Shown: one piece after another, positions 57,631 through 63,982 of the stretch
Layout: every line of letters begins with the position of its first letter
Position numbering within the stretch: position 1 is the stretch's first letter
Source of the DNA: Stigmatella aurantiaca
Lineage (GTDB): Bacteria; Myxococcota; Myxococcia; Myxococcales; Myxococcaceae
Length of the DNA stretch: 64,000 nt
Direction: 5' to 3'
Assembly (NCBI RefSeq): GCF_900109545.1
Contig: NZ_FOAP01000009.1
Coordinates: 186,001-250,000, forward strand
Position numbers and translations under genes: made by a program
The notes under the pieces: model-generated
The model's input: the letters and a program-made list of their open reading frames with translations, nothing else
Database searches by the model: none
Told to the model about the DNA's origin: nothing

Positions 57631-58017
57631 GTGTTAGAAAGCAGAGGGTCAGGGGAGGACTGGACGCTGACGACGGGACAAGAATGGCTGGTGGATGTGA
57701 GCGGCTGCTCGCCCGAGCAGCTCAAGAGCCTCGCCGTGCTCGCTGCCCTCTTCGAGGAGCTCATCGTCCAGATGGAACTCAAGGTGGTGGGACAGCCGCA
57801 GTGGCACGTGTTCCCGGAGCCGGGAGGAATTACGGGATTGACCTTGCTGGCCGAGAGCCACCTGTCCATCCACACCTTCCCCGAGCATGGCTTCGCGGCG
57901 CTCAACGTCTACTGCTGCCGGATGCGGGCCAGCCCGGACTTTCCGGCGCTGCTGGCGCGGCACCTGGGGGCTCAGTCCTGCCATGTGCGTGAACTGGCGC
58001 GGGGGGTGAAGGCGTGA
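57631..58017 (+). CDS. speD: S-adenosylmethionine decarboxylase proenzyme (SpeD)
   Basis: The 128-residue proenzyme is the short bacterial class 1B type. It should self-cleave between E75 and S76 in LAESHLSIHT, turning S76 into the pyruvoyl cofactor; the processing His81 and catalytic Cys96 are also conserved. The product is decarboxylated AdoMet, the aminopropyl donor for polyamines. The start is uncertain: this GTG gives the normal family length, but its ribosome-binding site is weak, and a CTG downstream of GGGGAGG is conceivable. It overlaps the DUF4178 gene by four bases and heads a six-gene unit with a membrane aminopropyltransferase. Confidence 0.88.
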   Translation: MLESRGSGEDWTLTTGQEWLVDVSGCSPEQLKSLAVLAALFEELIVQMELKVVGQPQWHVFPEPGGITGLTLLAESHLSIHTFPEHGFAALNVYCCRMRASPDFPALLARHLGAQSCHVRELARGVKA

Positions 58018-59897
58018 CGCAAGGGCAATGTCCCTCGTGTGGGGCGCCCGTGGAGTTCACCGCGGGCTCGGCGCAGGTGCTCGTCTGCGGCTACTGCCAG
58101 ACGGTGGTGGCCAAGAAGGGCTTCAACCTCGAGGCGCACGGGAAGATCGGCGCCATCGTGGACACGGACTCGCCCCTGCGGCTGGGGCTGGAGGGCCGCT
58201 ATGACCGGGCGCCGTACCGGCTGGTGGGCCACCTCCAGAAGGACCACGGCGCGGGCCCCTGGGACGAGTGGTACGTGGAGTTCGACAACGGCCGCACCGC
58301 CTGGCTCAGCGAGGCCGAGGGGTTCTTCTACCTCCTGTTCGAGTCGGGCGTGGAGGAGGGGATCGCGCTGGACGAGCTGCATCCCGGGGAGCGCTTCTCC
58401 CTGCGCGGCCGCTCCTACGTGGTGGAGGAGCGGGGCCATGGGCGCGTGGTGGCCGCCGAGGGGCAGCTGCCCAGCGACGTGGACCCCACCGAGGACAGCT
58501 ACTACGTGGACGCCACGGGCCCCAGGGGCGCCCTCGTCACCCTGGACTTCGGCACCCGCGCGAGGGAGCCCGAGGTCTTCGTGGGCCAGCGGCTGAAGCT
58601 GGAGCAGCTGGGCATTCCCATGGACCAGGTGCGCCCCAAGGCGCGCAAGGTGTCCCTGGAGCACGCGCGGTGTCCCCAGTGCAACGGCGCCCTGGCGCTC
58701 CGGGCCCCGGACAGCACCAAGCGCGTGGCGTGCCCGTACTGCGGCGCGCTCCTGGATGCCAGCAAGGGGCGGCTGGCCTTCTTGCAGCTGCTGGAGAAGC
58801 CGGACTACCCGCCGCTGATTCCCCTGGGCGCCAAGGGCAAGCTCGACGGCGTGGAGTGGATCTGCATCGGCTTCCTCATCCGCTCGTGCACGGTGGAGGG
58901 CACGCGCTACCCGTGGGAGGAATACCTCCTGTTCAACCGGGCGCGCGGCTTCACCTGGCTGATGCAGTCCAACGGCCACTGGGTGTACTTGAAGCCGCTG
59001 GATGCCGGGGCGGTGTCCCTGGCGCCGGGCAGCTCCGCGTACCACGAGGGCCGGCGCTACAAGTCCTTCCAGACCGTCACCGCCGTCACGGAGACGGTGC
59101 TGGGCGAGTTCTACTGGGAGGTGTCGGCCGGGGAGACGGCGCAGGCCTCCGAGTACGTGGCGCCGCCCTACTCGGTGAACGTGGACGCCACGGAGTCGGA
59201 GGTGTCCTACACCTTTGGAGAGTACCTGGCGCCCGCCGTCATCCAGGAGGCCTTCCAGCTCAAGGAGCCCCTGCCCACGCGGCAGGGCATTGCCCCCAGC
59301 CAGCCCAATCCCCACAGCTCCGCGCCCACGTGGAAGTGGTCCGCTGTCTGGATGGTGGCGCTGGTCCTGCTCTACTTGGGAATCAACCTCCAGGCCGCCA
59401 ACGAGCTGGTGCTCGACACGACGGTGCGGCTGGAGCCGGAGGCGGTGTCCGGCCAGCCCAGCGCCATGCACTTCAGCGAGCCGTTCACCATCCCCAAGTG
59501 GGGCAACGTGCGCGCGGAGGTGTTCTCGTCGGTGAGCAACAACTGGATCGGCGTCCAGGGGGACCTGGTGAACCAGGAGACGGGCGAGGTGCGCAGCTTC
59601 TACCAGGAGCTGAGCTTCTACTCGGGGCAGGACTCGGAAGGGGCCTGGTCCGAAGGCAGCCGGGACAACACCGAGTACCTGTCCGCGGTCACGCCGGGCA
59701 CCTACGTGCTGCGCACCACGGCGGCCTTCCCCTCGGCGCTCCTGCCCCAGCAGCGCGCTTACAAGGTGAAGCTCACGAGCGACGTGCCGCGCGGCACCTG
59801 GTTCTGTTTCGCGCTGGTGCTGCTGCTGCTGGGGCCGGTGTTCGCGTACCTGCGCTCGTCGAGCTTCGAGTCCGCCCGCTGGGCGGACAGCAACTAG
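58014..59897 (+). CDS. Zinc-ribbon DUF4178 membrane protein
   Basis: The 627-residue protein begins with a zinc ribbon (C6-x2-C9, C25-x2-C28), then a DUF4178 domain (about 55-200). A second zinc ribbon (CPQC...CPYC, about 220-245), a second DUF4178 domain (about 275-425), a membrane segment (about 443-462), a beta-rich extracytoplasmic domain and a final membrane segment (about 596-616) follow. DUF4178 has no known biochemical role; it recurs beside SpeD, DUF350 and aminopropyltransferase genes. The GTG start overlaps the speD stop (GTGA). The duplicated ribbon-DUF4178 unit on the cytosolic side suggests a scaffold or regulator for the polyamine enzymes at the membrane. Confidence 0.9.
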   Translation: MTQGQCPSCGAPVEFTAGSAQVLVCGYCQTVVAKKGFNLEAHGKIGAIVDTDSPLRLGLEGRYDRAPYRLVGHLQKDHGAGPWDEWYVEFDNGRTAWLSEAEGFFYLLFESGVEEGIALDELHPGERFSLRGRSYVVEERGHGRVVAAEGQLPSDVDPTEDSYYVDATGPRGALVTLDFGTRAREPEVFVGQRLKLEQLGIPMDQVRPKARKVSLEHARCPQCNGALALRAPDSTKRVACPYCGALLDASKGRLAFLQLLEKPDYPPLIPLGAKGKLDGVEWICIGFLIRSCTVEGTRYPWEEYLLFNRARGFTWLMQSNGHWVYLKPLDAGAVSLAPGSSAYHEGRRYKSFQTVTAVTETVLGEFYWEVSAGETAQASEYVAPPYSVNVDATESEVSYTFGEYLAPAVIQEAFQLKEPLPTRQGIAPSQPNPHSSAPTWKWSAVWMVALVLLYLGINLQAANELVLDTTVRLEPEAVSGQPSAMHFSEPFTIPKWGNVRAEVFSSVSNNWIGVQGDLVNQETGEVRSFYQELSFYSGQDSEGAWSEGSRDNTEYLSAVTPGTYVLRTTAAFPSALLPQQRAYKVKLTSDVPRGTWFCFALVLLLLGPVFAYLRSSSFESARWADSN

Positions 59898-59927
59898 GGT
59901 GGATGCAATGCGGAGGGGCTCAAGGCG

Positions 59928-60089
59928 ATGAAATACTTCGGTGGGTTGGTGCTGCTGCTGTACGGGGCCATGGCCTTCTCGGGCTGGGAGCCCTTCACCA
60001 ACGAAGAGCGCGGCAAGGTGTCCGGAGACGTGCGGCGGGGCCCGGGTGGCGTGCTGCTGTGGACCGGCGGATTCCAGGGAGGGAAGTGA
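59928..60089 (+). CDS. 53-residue membrane/secreted protein ending in GGK
   Basis: This short gene encodes MKYFGGLVLLLYGAMAFSGW, a hydrophobic N-terminus that may be a signal or anchor, then about 30 residues with VRRGPGG and a final GFQGGK. It lies between the DUF4178 and DUF350 genes, and its stop overlaps the DUF350 start in TGATG, so it is translated as part of the cluster. GGAGGGG sits 12 bases before the ATG. Small proteins with a similar R-x-PGG...GGK ending accompany DUF4178/DUF350 clusters in other bacteria, as far as I recall. The conserved basic C-terminus could be a substrate or membrane-facing peptide of the system. Function unknown. Confidence 0.7.
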   Translation: MKYFGGLVLLLYGAMAFSGWEPFTNEERGKVSGDVRRGPGGVLLWTGGFQGGK

Positions 60090-60316
60090 TGTTGCTATTG
60101 GGTGCGGTGGTGAGCGTGCAGGGGCTGCTGGCGAGCGTCATCTACTCGCTCATCGGGCTGGCGGTGTTCGTGGCGGGCTTCTACGTCATCAAGCTCATCC
60201 TCCCGTTCGACGTGAACAAGGAGATCGAAGCGGACCAGAACACGGCGCTGGGCATCGTCATCGGCTCCTTCATCCTCGGGCTGGCCATCATCGTGGCCTC
60301 GGCCATCTCGGGGTGA
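60089..60316 (+). CDS. DUF350 membrane protein
   Basis: The 75-residue protein has two membrane helices (about 10-35 and 52-73) separated by the polar loop LPFDVNKEIEADQNTALGI, the typical DUF350 signature with conserved acidic and Asn residues. DUF350 proteins, such as E. coli YjfL, often occur in tandem or in operons with polyamine-related enzymes. Their activity is unknown; they may form small channels or membrane tethers. The start codon overlaps the stop of the 53-residue protein gene by one base. Confidence 0.92.
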   Translation: MLLLGAVVSVQGLLASVIYSLIGLAVFVAGFYVIKLILPFDVNKEIEADQNTALGIVIGSFILGLAIIVASAISG

Positions 60317-60356
60317 GCGGTGCCCCCCATGCCGTGCCGCGAAGTGACGTGAAGAC

Positions 60357-61853
60357 GTGAACAAGACGCTGCTGTTCGTCACCGTGCTGGTCATCGCCAC
60401 GTGTGGGCTCATCTACGAGCTCATCGTGGGGGCGCTGGCCAGCTATCTGCTGGGCGACTCCATCACCCAGTTCTCCACCGTCATCGGCGGCTACCTGTTC
60501 GCCATGGGCATCGGCAGCTACCTGTCGCGCTTCATCGACAAGGGGCTGGCGCAGCGCTTCGTGGAGATCGAACTGGGCGTGGCGCTGGTGGGCGGGCTGT
60601 GTGCCCCGCTGCTGTTCCTCACCTTCACGCTGACGGATGTGTTCCACGTCGCGCTGTATGGCAGCGTGCTGGTGATTGGCACGCTGGTGGGGCTGGAGAT
60701 TCCCCTGCTGCTGCGCATCCTCAAGGACCAGGTGCAGTTCAAGGACCTGGTCAGCCAGGTGCTGACGTTCGACTACCTGGGCGCGCTGGCGGCGAGCGTC
60801 TCCTTCCCGCTGCTGTTCGTGCCCAAGCTGGGGCTGGTGCGCACCTCGCTGCTCTTCGGGCTGCTCAACGCGCTGGTGGGGTTGTGGAGCACGTGGCTCC
60901 TGGCGCCAGTGCTCGGAAACCCCACGCGGCTGCGGGTGAAGGCGGTGGGGCTGTCGCTGTTCCTGGTGGTGGGGCTGGCGCTGGGCGACCGGCTGACCAC
61001 CTTCTACGAGGACCAGCTCTACGCGGACGAGGTGGTGCACGCCTCCAACTCCCCGTACCAGCGCATCATCCTCACCCGGGGCAAGCGGGGCTTCTCGCTG
61101 TTTCTCAACGGCAACCTGCAGTTCGCGAGCATCGACGAGTACCGCTACCACGAGTCCCTGGTGCACCCGGCCCTGGTGCGCGCGGGCTCGGTGGAGCGGG
61201 TGCTCATCCTGGGAGGCGGGGACGGGCTGGCGGCGCGCGAGGCGCTGCGCTACCCGGAGGTGAAGTCCGTCACGCTGGTGGACCTGGACCCGGCCATCAC
61301 CGGGCTGGCCACAGGCTACGGGGAACTGGCGGCGCTCAACGGCCACGCGCTCTCGCATCCGAAGGTACGGGTCATCAACACGGACGCGATGAAGTTCCTG
61401 GCGGAAGGCGAGGGGCTCTTCGATGCCGTCATCGTGGACTTCCCGGATCCGAACAACTTCTCGCTGGGCAAGCTGTACACCACGGGCTTCTACAAGCTCC
61501 TGAAGCGCCGGCTGGCGCCGGAAGGCGTGGCCGTCATCCAGAGCACGAGCCCGCTGTTCGCGCGCCGCTCGTTCTGGTGCGTGAACGAGACGCTGAAGGC
61601 CGCGGGCTTCTGGACGGAGCCGTACCACGCGCTGGTGCCCTCCTTTGGCGAGTGGGGGTACGTGCTGGTCTCCCATGGGCCGGTGCCGCGCCGCCGCGCG
61701 CTGCCCGAGGGGCTGTCCTTCCTCAATGACGCCACGCTGGCCTCGCTCACCCAGTTCTCCCCCGACATGGGCCCGCTGCCCGCGGAGGTGAACCGGCTGA
61801 ACAACCAGGTGCTGGTGCACTACTACGAGGAGGAGTGGAGCCGGTGGAACTGA
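60357..61853 (+). CDS. Membrane-embedded polyamine aminopropyltransferase (spermidine synthase-like)
   Basis: The 498-residue protein fuses about six to seven membrane helices (residues 1-210) to a cytosolic spermidine synthase domain (about 225-470). Catalytic-domain motifs are DEYRYHESLVHPAL (257-272), GGGDG (286-290), the acidic VDLDP (308-312) that binds the donor ribose, and DFPDP (361-365), where D361/D364 match the proton-accepting and amine-binding Asp pair. It should transfer an aminopropyl group from decarboxylated AdoMet to an amine. The membrane domain is too large for a simple anchor and may present or move the substrate. The start is GTG, and the 3' end overlaps the FAD oxidoreductase gene by 10 bases. 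Confidence 0.92.
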   Translation: MNKTLLFVTVLVIATCGLIYELIVGALASYLLGDSITQFSTVIGGYLFAMGIGSYLSRFIDKGLAQRFVEIELGVALVGGLCAPLLFLTFTLTDVFHVALYGSVLVIGTLVGLEIPLLLRILKDQVQFKDLVSQVLTFDYLGALAASVSFPLLFVPKLGLVRTSLLFGLLNALVGLWSTWLLAPVLGNPTRLRVKAVGLSLFLVVGLALGDRLTTFYEDQLYADEVVHASNSPYQRIILTRGKRGFSLFLNGNLQFASIDEYRYHESLVHPALVRAGSVERVLILGGGDGLAAREALRYPEVKSVTLVDLDPAITGLATGYGELAALNGHALSHPKVRVINTDAMKFLAEGEGLFDAVIVDFPDPNNFSLGKLYTTGFYKLLKRRLAPEGVAVIQSTSPLFARRSFWCVNETLKAAGFWTEPYHALVPSFGEWGYVLVSHGPVPRRRALPEGLSFLNDATLASLTQFSPDMGPLPAEVNRLNNQVLVHYYEEEWSRWN

Positions 61854-63478
61854 CGCGGCGGGAGCTGATTGCCGCATTCCTGGGTTCGGCGGTGGCGGCG
61901 GGCGCGTGCCAGCGCTCGCGCCCCCGGGCCTCCGTGCCCGGCGCGCTGGTGGACCGGGCGATGGAGACGGGCCACCGCCTGCGGGGCGGGCCGTTGCCGC
62001 GCGCCGAAGGGGCCGAGCCTGTCGAGGTCCTCATCGTCGGCTCGGGGATCGCGGGCCTGTCCGCGGCCTGGCGGCTCGCGGCGGCGGGCGTGAAGGACGT
62101 GCGGGTGGTGGAGCTGGAGGACGAGGCCGGGGGCACCTCTCGCTCGGGGAAGAACGCGGTGTCCGCCTTCCCGTGGGGCGCCCATTACCTGCCCGCGCCG
62201 CTGACGGAGCAGGGGGCGGTGCTGCGGCTCCTGCGGGAGCTGGGCGTCGTGTCCGGGATGGACGCGGAGGGCTACCCGGTGTTCCCGGAGGAGCTGCTCA
62301 TCCGCGAGCCGGAGGAGCGGCTCTTCTACAAGGGCGCCTGGTACGAGGGGCTGTACCTGCGCGCGGGCGCGAGCGGGGCGGACCTGGCGGAGCTGGCCCG
62401 CTTCGAGGCCCGGATGAACACGTTCGCCGCGGCGCGGGACGCGAAGGGGCGCAAGGCGTTCGCCGTGCCCACGGCGCTCAGCAGCGATGACGCGGAGTGG
62501 ACGGCGCTCGACGCGGTGACCATGGCCCAGTGGCTGGAGGCCGAGGGCTTCCGCTCGCCCCGGCTGAAGTGGCTGGTGGACTACGCGTGCCGGGATGACT
62601 ACGGCACCACGGCGGAGGGCGTGTCCGCCTGGGCGGGCATCTGGTACTTCGCCGCGCGCCAGGACGGGCGGGGGGAGCGCAGCGAGGGCTTCCTGAGCTG
62701 GCCCGAGGGCAATGGCCGGCTGGTGCGGCACCTGCTGGGGGCGGTGGCGCCGCGGCAGGTGGAGCGCCAGGTGCTGGTGCACACCGTGGAGCCGGGCGTG
62801 GACGGGTGCCGGGTGGAGGCGCTGGAGGCGGGGACAGGCAAGCCCCGGGCATTCCAGGCGCGCCAGGTGGTGTTCGCCGGGCCGCGCTTCGTGGCGGCGC
62901 ACGTGGTGGCGCCGTGGCGCCAGCGGCGCCCGGAGTGGATGGGAGCCTTCGCCTACGGGCCGTGGGTGGTGGCCAACCTCACGCTGTCGAGCCCGCCCCA
63001 GTCGCACGGCTTTCCGCTGGCCTGGGACAACGTCTTCTACGAGAGCCGCAGCCTGGGCTACGTGGCGGCCACGCACCAGATGCTGCGCCAGGACGACTCG
63101 GGGCCCACGGTGCTCACCTGGTACCTGCCGCTGGCGGGGCTGGACGTGAAGGCCGAGCGGGAGCGGGTGCTGGCGGCGGGCTATGCGGACTGGGAGGGGC
63201 TGGTGATGGCGGACATGCTCCCGGCGCACCCGGGCATTGCTGCCCAGGCGCAGCGCCTGGAGGTGATGCGCTGGGGCCACGCGATGATCCGGCCCACCCC
63301 CGGCTTCATGTGGGGGCCGACGCGCTTCGCGGCTCAGGAGAGCCTGGGCCGGACGCTTCACTTCGCGCACACGGACCTGGGAGGCATGGCCCTGTTCGAG
63401 GAGGCGAACTGGTTCGGGGTGAAGGCGGCGGAGCGCGTGCTCGCGGAGCTGGGACGCCCGCAGGCCAGCTGGCTGTAG
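61844..63478 (+). CDS. FAD-dependent amine oxidase-like oxidoreductase with Tat-type signal
   Basis: The 544-residue flavoprotein starts with a twin-arginine-like signal, T-R-R-E-L-I-A followed by AFLGSAVAAGAC, which may also be a weak lipobox. It then has the dinucleotide fold GSGIAG (66-71) with the acidic E of VVELEDEAGGTSRSG, and a long C-terminal region like NAD(P)/FAD amine oxidases. It should be folded with FAD in the cytosol and exported. GTG was chosen because GAGGAGGAG lies 8 bases upstream; an earlier GTG is too close to that site. It overlaps the aminopropyltransferase gene, so it may oxidise the polyamine-like product outside the membrane. The substrate is inferred, not shown. 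Confidence 0.85.
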   Translation: MELTRRELIAAFLGSAVAAGACQRSRPRASVPGALVDRAMETGHRLRGGPLPRAEGAEPVEVLIVGSGIAGLSAAWRLAAAGVKDVRVVELEDEAGGTSRSGKNAVSAFPWGAHYLPAPLTEQGAVLRLLRELGVVSGMDAEGYPVFPEELLIREPEERLFYKGAWYEGLYLRAGASGADLAELARFEARMNTFAAARDAKGRKAFAVPTALSSDDAEWTALDAVTMAQWLEAEGFRSPRLKWLVDYACRDDYGTTAEGVSAWAGIWYFAARQDGRGERSEGFLSWPEGNGRLVRHLLGAVAPRQVERQVLVHTVEPGVDGCRVEALEAGTGKPRAFQARQVVFAGPRFVAAHVVAPWRQRRPEWMGAFAYGPWVVANLTLSSPPQSHGFPLAWDNVFYESRSLGYVAATHQMLRQDDSGPTVLTWYLPLAGLDVKAERERVLAAGYADWEGLVMADMLPAHPGIAAQAQRLEVMRWGHAMIRPTPGFMWGPTRFAAQESLGRTLHFAHTDLGGMALFEEANWFGVKAAERVLAELGRPQASWL

Positions 63479-63481
63479 CCC

Positions 63482-63982
63482 TTACCCGCTCGCGGCCACG
63501 TGCCGCAGCTCGGCATACAGCCGCGCCAGGTCCTCCAGCCGGTAGTGGGCGTTGAGCCCGCTCGGGTTGGGGAGCACCCAGAGCCGGGCCTCTCCCAGGG
63601 GCTCGGGCTGGAGCCCCAGGACGGCCTCGGGGCGGTTGAACGCGGCCCGGTAGGCGCTCACGCCCAGCACGGCGATGAAGCGGGGCCGGTAGCGCCGCAC
63701 CTTGGCCACGAGCTGGCGGCCGCCCTGCACCAGCTCCTCGGCGGACAGCTCGGCGGCGGTGGCCGTCGCTCGGTCCACCACGTTGGTGATGCCGTAGCCG
63801 AGCCCCACCAACTCGAGCTGCTCGGCGGGCTTCAACCGGCGCGGGGTGAAGCCCGCCGCATGCAGGGTGGGCCAGAAGCGGTTGCCCGGACGGGCGAAGT
63901 GGTGGCCCACCACCACGGAGTACAGGCTGGGGTTGATGCCGCAGAAGAGGACGCGCAGCCCGGGGGCGATGATGTCCGGCAT
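63482..63982 (-). CDS. mug: G/U mismatch-specific DNA glycosylase (Mug/TDG family)
   Basis: The 166-residue repair enzyme excises uracil or ethenocytosine from mismatched DNA. Family motifs are GINPS (15-19, with catalytic Asn17) near the start and NPSGLNAHY in the DNA-intercalating loop. The start MPDIIAPGLRVLFCG matches the beginning of known Mug proteins; a GTG four codons upstream is less likely. It is convergent with the FAD oxidoreductase gene, 3 bases apart, and not part of the polyamine cluster. The family's length is about 165-170, so it is complete. Confidence 0.93.
   Translation of the reverse strand: MPDIIAPGLRVLFCGINPSLYSVVVGHHFARPGNRFWPTLHAAGFTPRRLKPAEQLELVGLGYGITNVVDRATATAAELSAEELVQGGRQLVAKVRRYRPRFIAVLGVSAYRAAFNRPEAVLGLQPEPLGEARLWVLPNPSGLNAHYRLEDLARLYAELRHVAASG

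Follow-up and report, generated by a model that had tools for sequence, protein, structure and literature searches.

Results

Gene content of the cluster

A 64,000-nucleotide stretch of the Stigmatella aurantiaca genome (contig NZ_FOAP01000009.1, positions 186,001 to 250,000; hereafter, the window) carries a six-gene cluster, all on the plus strand at 57631–63478, whose third gene encodes a 53-amino-acid membrane peptide ending in lysine. This terminal lysine and the membrane-bound aminopropyltransferase (APT) encoded two genes downstream are the subject of this report. An earlier sequence-only reading had assigned the products to SpeD with its processing motif, a doubled DUF4178 protein, a tiny peptide, DUF350, a membrane APT, and a flavin adenine dinucleotide (FAD) enzyme, and both the coordinates and our profile searches agree with that assignment.

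The cluster opens with speD (57631..58017, +), which likely starts at a GTG at 57631, stops at 58017, and encodes a class 1b S-adenosylmethionine (AdoMet) decarboxylase (PF02675, E 4.9e-26; TIGR03330, 82.2 bits against a cut-off of 75.65) with the processing motif ESHLSIHT and an NVYCC motif. The next gene (58014..59897, +) encodes a doubled zinc-ribbon/DUF4178 protein in which two stretches match PF13785, followed by two predicted membrane segments; its zinc-ribbon-like matches, near residues 5–31 and 217–249, mostly fell under the cut-offs. The 53-residue membrane peptide (59928..60089, +), the proposed acceptor, ends in GGFQGGK and gave no Pfam or NCBIfam match in profile searches. Its final Gly-Gly-Lys codons occupy 60078..60086 (+), with the lysine codon at 60084–60086 as the proposed modification site. 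A short, 75-residue DUF350 membrane protein (60089..60316, +; PF03994, E 2.3e-14) is followed by the APT, a seven-helix membrane domain joined to an aminopropyltransferase domain of the PRK03612 type (60357..61853, +), and by a flavin amine-oxidase-like enzyme with an arginine-pair (RR) signal (61835..63478, +). Genes overlap at three of the five junctions (SpeD/DUF4178, peptide/DUF350, and APT/FAD enzyme). The cluster is taken to end with the FAD gene, since a convergent uracil-DNA-glycosylase-family gene ends at 63482; upstream lies an opposite-strand gene with a weak PGAP1-like match. No PspA or band-7 gene was found among the six cluster genes and the two flanking genes searched.

Conservation of a C-terminal lysine

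At APT loci generally, a short protein usually lies between DUF4178 and DUF350 and consists of an N-terminal hydrophobic segment followed by a variable tail that is often rich in Gly, Ser, and Tyr. A blind rule that used only position and hydrophobicity, tried at 103 loci, picked out this protein at 84, and at 79 of the 84 it ends in Lys (63 of 67 separate tails and 16 of 17 typed as fused). As background, 4.3% of 1983 mechanically called open reading frames of at least 200 amino acids from the same loci end in Lys. Inspection of the remaining five loci revealed a lysine-ending peptide in the same gap but in another frame in four (L067, L095, L098, and L122) and, in L068, a 95-residue peptide farther upstream that ends in GGYGGK. 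Inspection likewise showed a lysine-ending tail at six (L055, L056, L058, L100, L114, and L135) of the 19 loci beyond the reach of the rule.

Conservation is confined to the extreme end of the tail. Among the 79 lysine-ending tails, the penultimate position is G in 53, H in 25, and V in 1, with the rest variable, and the entropy is 0 at −1, 0.99 at −2, and 1.68 to 3.38 over −3 to −15. The tails fall into 23 groups by single linkage at 30% identity over the last 39 residues. Sixteen Burkholderiales-type loci, together with L114, have no separate tail gene, and in these the DUF4178 protein itself bears both the hydrophobic segment and the tail, whose last residues are GGGHK or GGSHK. Where the tail is a separate protein, the neighboring DUF4178 protein has E or D as its last residue in 47 of 67 cases. 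We read the tail with its last lysine as one functional unit, because natural fusion to DUF4178 keeps the terminal Lys. The end of the tail is probably outside the membrane, given that the more positive flank of the hydrophobic segment is on its N side in 46 of 63 peptides (equal in 13, reversed in 4) and that two tail carriers (L055 and L058) are lipoprotein-like by eye. On sequence grounds, the tiny membrane peptide is thus the likely acceptor of the cluster's enzyme.

The membrane aminopropyltransferase

The APT scored 656.3 bits against NF002956/PRK03612, the membrane-type polyamine aminopropyltransferase family (cut-off, 472), and only 126.5 bits against the canonical speE family, TIGR00417, which is below the cut-off of 249.55. 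Unlike canonical SpeE, which has no membrane domain, it carries helices over residues 3–208 ahead of the APT domain, where the PF01564 match covers residues 262–439. An AlphaFold2 (AF2) model built with 80 sequences (mean pLDDT, 88.2; pTM, 0.63) matched the Thermus thermophilus APT (1uir_A) with a Z score of 35.5 and a root mean square deviation (rmsd) of 2.2 over 273 aligned residues at 29% identity, and the list of fold matches consisted of APT-domain matches throughout. Eight residues (Q255, Y264, H265, E266, D289, D361, D364, and W433) are invariant in 80 of 80 APTs and align with the decarboxylated AdoMet (dcAdoMet) and amine sites of spermidine synthase (SpdSyn), whose residues we take to have the roles usually ascribed to them.

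AF2 does not predict membrane orientation, so the catalytic side cannot be read from the model. Lysine and arginine residues cluster in the loops that follow helices 2, 4, and 6; this positive-inside pattern, with the N terminus inside and seven helices, makes a periplasmic APT domain most likely. Helix 2 is only weakly hydrophobic, and AF2 draws residues 128–181 as one helix; we count two there, since a mostly hydrophobic stretch of 54 residues is too long for a single crossing. Seven transmembrane (TM) segments are also counted in passages of a recent study of such proteins (Ravi et al. 2024, PMC11237479).

Linkage of SpeD and the APT

The sequence-only reading had suggested a survey of genomes for conserved co-occurrence of the six genes, and 59 genomes of the order were searched for the APT, PF02675, DUF4178, and Spermine_synth. 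A full-length membrane APT was present in 19 genomes (E 7.8e-183 or better), and SpeD (PF02675) was found in exactly the same 19. DUF4178 occurred in 21 genomes, namely, these 19 plus G015 (contig C120) and G020 (C199), both of which have neither SpeD nor a full-length membrane APT; a further genome, G024, lacks SpeD and has a fragment with 61% identity to the APT. Wide stretches were compared for 16 of the 18 loci of the order outside the window: SpeD, DUF4178, tail, DUF350, and APT were together in 15 and were joined by the FAD gene in 13. At the exception, L038, the APT and FAD genes adjoin, and SpeD and DUF4178 are on separate contigs. The grouping is not due to chance, since 15 of the 16 loci keep five genes together and the layout recurs in other phyla. 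The APT at L064 (BNCN01000002.1) is 81% identical to that of the window.

A separate soluble SpeE had also been proposed as something to look for. The whole-genome search found no second SpeE-family gene in the window's genome, which has a single SpeE-family gene, a single SpeD, and a single DUF350; the same genome gave no match for CANSDC (nspC) and none for a ligase of the GSP_synth family (PF03738). It does have speA; about 1.5 kb from it, on the other strand, lies a gene of the deoxyhypusine synthase family (L179, G000:C10:246500-255500), and a second gene of the latter family is found elsewhere (G000:C32). This gene set suggests that polyamines may come from a homospermidine-type route that needs no dcAdoMet, and SpeD would serve the membrane APT. 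Some Spermine_synth match was present in 42 of the 59 genomes; those besides the membrane APTs, taken as a group, score lower, and many lie in long open frames.

Distribution across phyla

Among the 80 best of at least 572 APT relatives found in a contig scan, loci came from Acidobacteria, Gemmatimonadota, Planctomycetes, Verrucomicrobia, Bacteroidota, beta-proteobacteria, and others. DUF4178 was a partner in 68 of these 80 loci, DUF350 in 66, the FAD gene in 64, and SpeD in 46; for the 49 loci with sufficient flank, the corresponding counts were 44, 43, 41, and 31. SpeD is frequently absent beside Burkholderiales loci, as judged from the locus neighborhoods only. Plasmid-borne or more distant clusters were found in Gemmatirosa, Novosphingobium, Burkholderia, Ensifer, Tritonibacter, and Alteromonas.

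Several loci depart from the common layout. In Solitalea agri (L133, 4443–7913), the set of DUF4178, lysine-ending tail, and DUF350 occurs twice in tandem before a single APT. On an Alteromonas mediterranea plasmid (L058, 5944–12602), the lysine-ending protein is a 510-residue lipoprotein-like protein that ends in PSSGK, and the cluster also has a gene for a "toxic anion resistance protein" and a longer DUF350. A Novosphingobium plasmid (L054, 2586–9435) has an SPFH/band-7 gene before the cluster and speD after it, in line with the link to membrane-organizing proteins described in parts of Ravi et al. (PMC11237479). Full-length membrane APTs with no DUF350, DUF4178, or tail found nearby (some on short contigs) were seen at L083, L086, L088, L112, L121, L126, L139, and L156, several of them in Accumulibacter/Dechloromonas-like genomes. 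L156, a lone APT, was the one locus examined of 18 from a scan of a viral collection. No actinobacterial full-length membrane APT appeared among the plasmid matches listed (40 of 71 records, and all 41 records of another listing). Rv2599, a DUF4247 protein, is reported in parts of one published account to have a signal/TM segment and to bind host matrix proteins, which does not decide the nature of its C terminus (PMC3726780).

Contrast with peptide-spermidine ligase clusters

E. coli clusters encoding an enzyme named "peptide--spermidine ligase" in RefSeq contain the same DUF350 family (YjfL) together with a DUF1190 protein. We compared 14 ligase loci, 7 of which have DUF350 annotated beside the ligase. 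A DUF1190-type partner was present in 10, nine by annotation and that of Marinovum by its similarity to the Sulfitobacter protein: E. coli YjfM and YgiB and the proteins of Vibrio, Rhizobium, Sulfitobacter, Pseudomonas psychrotolerans, Marinovum, Roseomonas, P. syringae, and Falsirhodobacter. All 10 end in -GG, and the neighbor of the Paraburkholderia ligase ends in -GGG. A plasmid record of Tsukamurella (L143, 4924–7414) has a ligase-DUF350 pair with a neighboring membrane protein that contains an RGGLG motif.

In these loci, enzyme chemistry and last residue go together: a ligase that would join a carboxylate to spermidine accompanies Gly-Gly, whereas an enzyme that would transfer aminopropyl to an amine accompanies Lys. 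The YgiC/YjfC clusters resemble that of S. aurantiaca in having DUF350, an exported Gly/Ser-rich tail protein, and a polyamine-chemistry enzyme that would act at its terminus, and they differ in pairing an ATP-grasp ligase with a Gly-Gly tail where the window has an APT and a GGK tail. By our chemical reading, an aminopropylated lysine after Gly-Gly resembles spermidine amide-linked to Gly-Gly, with one more carbon and a carboxylate. A 2023 paper by Pederick et al. is cited in connection with these ligases.

The FAD enzyme

The last gene product matched PF01593 (E 7.1e-11; 42.5 bits, above the cut-off of 19.8) and begins with TRREL and a hydrophobic stretch. Its earlier interpretation as an exported enzyme was strengthened by the homologues: RR and a hydrophobic stretch precede the dinucleotide-binding motif in 78 of 81, a count in which frames were extended upstream and a few instances may be due to chance. 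The model (pLDDT, 91.6) matched a monoamine oxidase (8p84_A; Z score, 29.4; rmsd, 3.5; 425 aligned residues) and a putrescine oxidase (2yg7_A; Z score, 29.1), but matches to the rest of the superfamily also came within 1 to 3 Z of these. The gene is absent beside the otherwise intact clusters L041, L042, L066, and L102, and we therefore regard the enzyme as an accessory.

Discussion

Taken together, the position, fusion, and terminal conservation of the tail, the contrast of K with GG, the linkage of SpeD to the APT, the invariant active-site residues, the predicted topology, and the genes for a possible separate polyamine route lead us to propose that the cluster is a dedicated system for aminopropylating a C-terminal lysine, in which the APT modifies the tail peptide rather than free putrescine; we put the chances of this reading, which is drawn from sequence, at about even. 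SpeD, as its family suggests, would make dcAdoMet, and the seven-helix APT would move the aminopropyl group onto the side-chain amine of the tail protein's last lysine, giving N6-(3-aminopropyl)lysine, a spermidine-like tail. With its aminobutyl amine side chain, lysine resembles half of a putrescine molecule and could stand in for it. Tail and APT domain most likely both face the periplasm. DUF350 and DUF4178 might form a scaffold in the membrane on which the tail or dcAdoMet is presented, with the DUF4178 protein perhaps serving as scaffold or tail-presenting protein, and the RR-signal oxidase-like enzyme might later oxidize or remove the aminopropyl group. The whole would be the counterpart of the E. 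coli-type clusters, where the ligase would attach spermidine to the Gly-Gly at a protein's C terminus. The broader claim, that N6-(3-aminopropyl)lysine is a widespread modification at the C termini of membrane-anchored tails, made outside the cytoplasmic membrane by a dcAdoMet-fed APT and matched by spermidine-Gly-Gly chemistry in DUF1190 clusters, is one that we advance tentatively, at somewhat under even chances.

Other explanations for the terminal lysine were considered. Because GGA-GGG-AAG-TGATG in the window would also serve DUF350 well as a ribosome-binding site, and many loci have GGA-GGN-AAR codons just before or overlapping the DUF350 start, the residue could be a by-product of the Shine-Dalgarno sequence of the downstream gene. 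We rejected this artifact for the lysine and consider it extremely improbable: -HK tails use CAC/CAT-AAR codons, several tails end about 18 to 130 nucleotides before the chosen DUF350 start, fused tails also end in K, and AAG (44) and AAA (35) are both common. Penultimate codons are similarly mixed (GGC, 26; CAC, 22; GGA, 15; GGG, 9; GGT, 3; CAT, 3; GTC, 1), and the tails of Alteromonas and Ensifer end in K with no DUF350 start after them. The glycines of -GGK may be partly driven by the DNA; the lysine is not. Alternatively, the lysine might be a recognition or anchoring element. The tail would then belong to a DUF350/DUF4178/APT complex as a small subunit or chaperone, and the substrate of the APT would be some other molecule (a lipid, a glycan, or another protein). 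A structural role should, however, constrain more of the peptide than its final one to three residues, whereas entropy rises from −2 inward, and the contrast between K and GG tracks the chemistry of the neighboring enzyme. We therefore hold this to be fairly unlikely, even though the tail is always beside DUF350 and DUF4178, is fused to the latter in 16 loci, and could not be found for some APTs (13 of 103 loci).

The cluster might instead carry out ordinary polyamine synthesis at the membrane, where an anchored synthase would make spermidine (or aminopropylcadaverine) and an exported polyamine oxidase would see to its turnover. The name of the family, the identity of the active-site residues with those of SpdSyn, the presence of speA (and thus possibly of putrescine), and a FAD enzyme with a putrescine/monoamine oxidase fold all speak for such a function. 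It leaves the lysine tail and the fixed partners unexplained, however, and the score against TIGR00417 is under the cut-off, so that the APT is not an ordinary soluble SpeE; the deoxyhypusine-synthase-family gene near speA also offers an alternative triamine route, and fusions of this kind reportedly fail to complement an E. coli speE mutant (Li and coworkers, 2019). We consider this explanation distinctly unlikely. Aminopropylation of lipids or surface glycans, which would alter the charge of the envelope, is in our estimation very unlikely: profile searches found no lipid- or glycan-handling gene within the cluster, and the conserved C-terminal lysine would be without a reason, even if the membrane domain, the membrane partners, and the tie of such operons to envelope stress reported in parts of Ravi et al. 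(PMC11237479) fit it. The sequence-only reading had left the target open among lipid, peptide, and surface molecule; its membrane-linked product stands in outline, with the peptide now favored through its C-terminal lysine and a lipid less likely.

Several observations weigh against modification of the tail lysine as we propose it. In 13 of 103 loci, mostly lone APT genes or short contigs, the APT has no findable tail, and in many loci the GG of -GGK overlaps the ribosome-binding site. The contig scan kept the best 80 loci and is biased toward the best-scoring relatives, and the actinobacterial DUF4247 clusters lie outside the tail survey. Basic residues at positions 97 and 162 of the APT are on the side called outside, and a periplasmic APT would require export of dcAdoMet, for which the membrane domain and DUF350 are purely speculative candidates. 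The contrast between K and GG draws on 10 to 11 loci; the Tsukamurella ligase neighbor ends in Ser, an exception to Gly-Gly, and 2 of the 14 ligase loci (Arthrobacter and Azospirillum) have no recognized tail protein. Flavin amine oxidases have a conserved lysine near the flavin, and no alignment column of 37 FAD-enzyme sequences has Lys in more than 60%; since other superfamily folds also score nearly alike, that this enzyme oxidizes amines is guessed from its fold and its gene neighbors.

The gene types of the cluster are not new. Work by Li, Kurihara, Kim, Liang, and Michael in 2019 reportedly described clusters of an MFS-SpdSyn fusion, AdoMet decarboxylase, and DUF350, and is said to have proposed that the fusion aminopropylates something besides putrescine, with the acceptor reportedly unnamed; these clusters share gene types with that of the window, and the C-terminal lysine acceptor is the difference proposed here. 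Hypusine and deoxyhypusine arise when an unrelated enzyme transfers aminobutyl from spermidine to an internal lysine, and the modification proposed here would likewise place a polyamine-derived group on a lysine amine, with aminopropyl from dcAdoMet on a C-terminal residue instead. A PSP-linked operon of six to seven genes, with a 7TM-spermine synthase, DUF350, DUF4178, and a lipoprotein, appears in passages of Ravi et al. (PMC11237479), and a role outside spermidine synthesis is already in print for such APTs. Those operons share DUF350, DUF4178, and the 7TM-APT with ours, and variants have AdoMet decarboxylase and polyamine oxidase; they differ in having PspA and CesT/Tir or band-7 genes, and those passages do not mention the C-terminal residue. 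A precedent for joining a 7TM domain to a SpdSyn-fold domain is the fungal histidine methyltransferase NHMT, a 7TM-SpdSyn-like enzyme whose target is the terminus of a secreted protein; according to parts of its description, its 7TM domain is almost only fungal, and it has Ile where binders of dcAdoMet have Asp/Glu in GxG(D/E)G, the position of the APT's invariant D289 (PMC10349129). We claim no homology between the NHMT and APT membrane domains. What we add are the C-terminal lysine as acceptor, its fusion to DUF4178, and the contrast of K with GG. None of these, nor any named acceptor, was found in the literature searched, although most subscription papers were outside that search and absence from print is not thereby established.

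In sum, this analysis offers a concrete candidate for the substrate of widespread membrane APTs, a question left open in print. If the proposal is true, many annotated polyamine synthases would be protein-modifying enzymes, and hypusine would gain a relative among the modifications of lysine. Two routes, one through an APT and a terminal lysine and the other through a ligase and a terminal Gly-Gly, would then lead to the same kind of polyamine-tipped protein, and DUF350, DUF4178, and DUF1190 would share a common context in building such proteins at the membrane.

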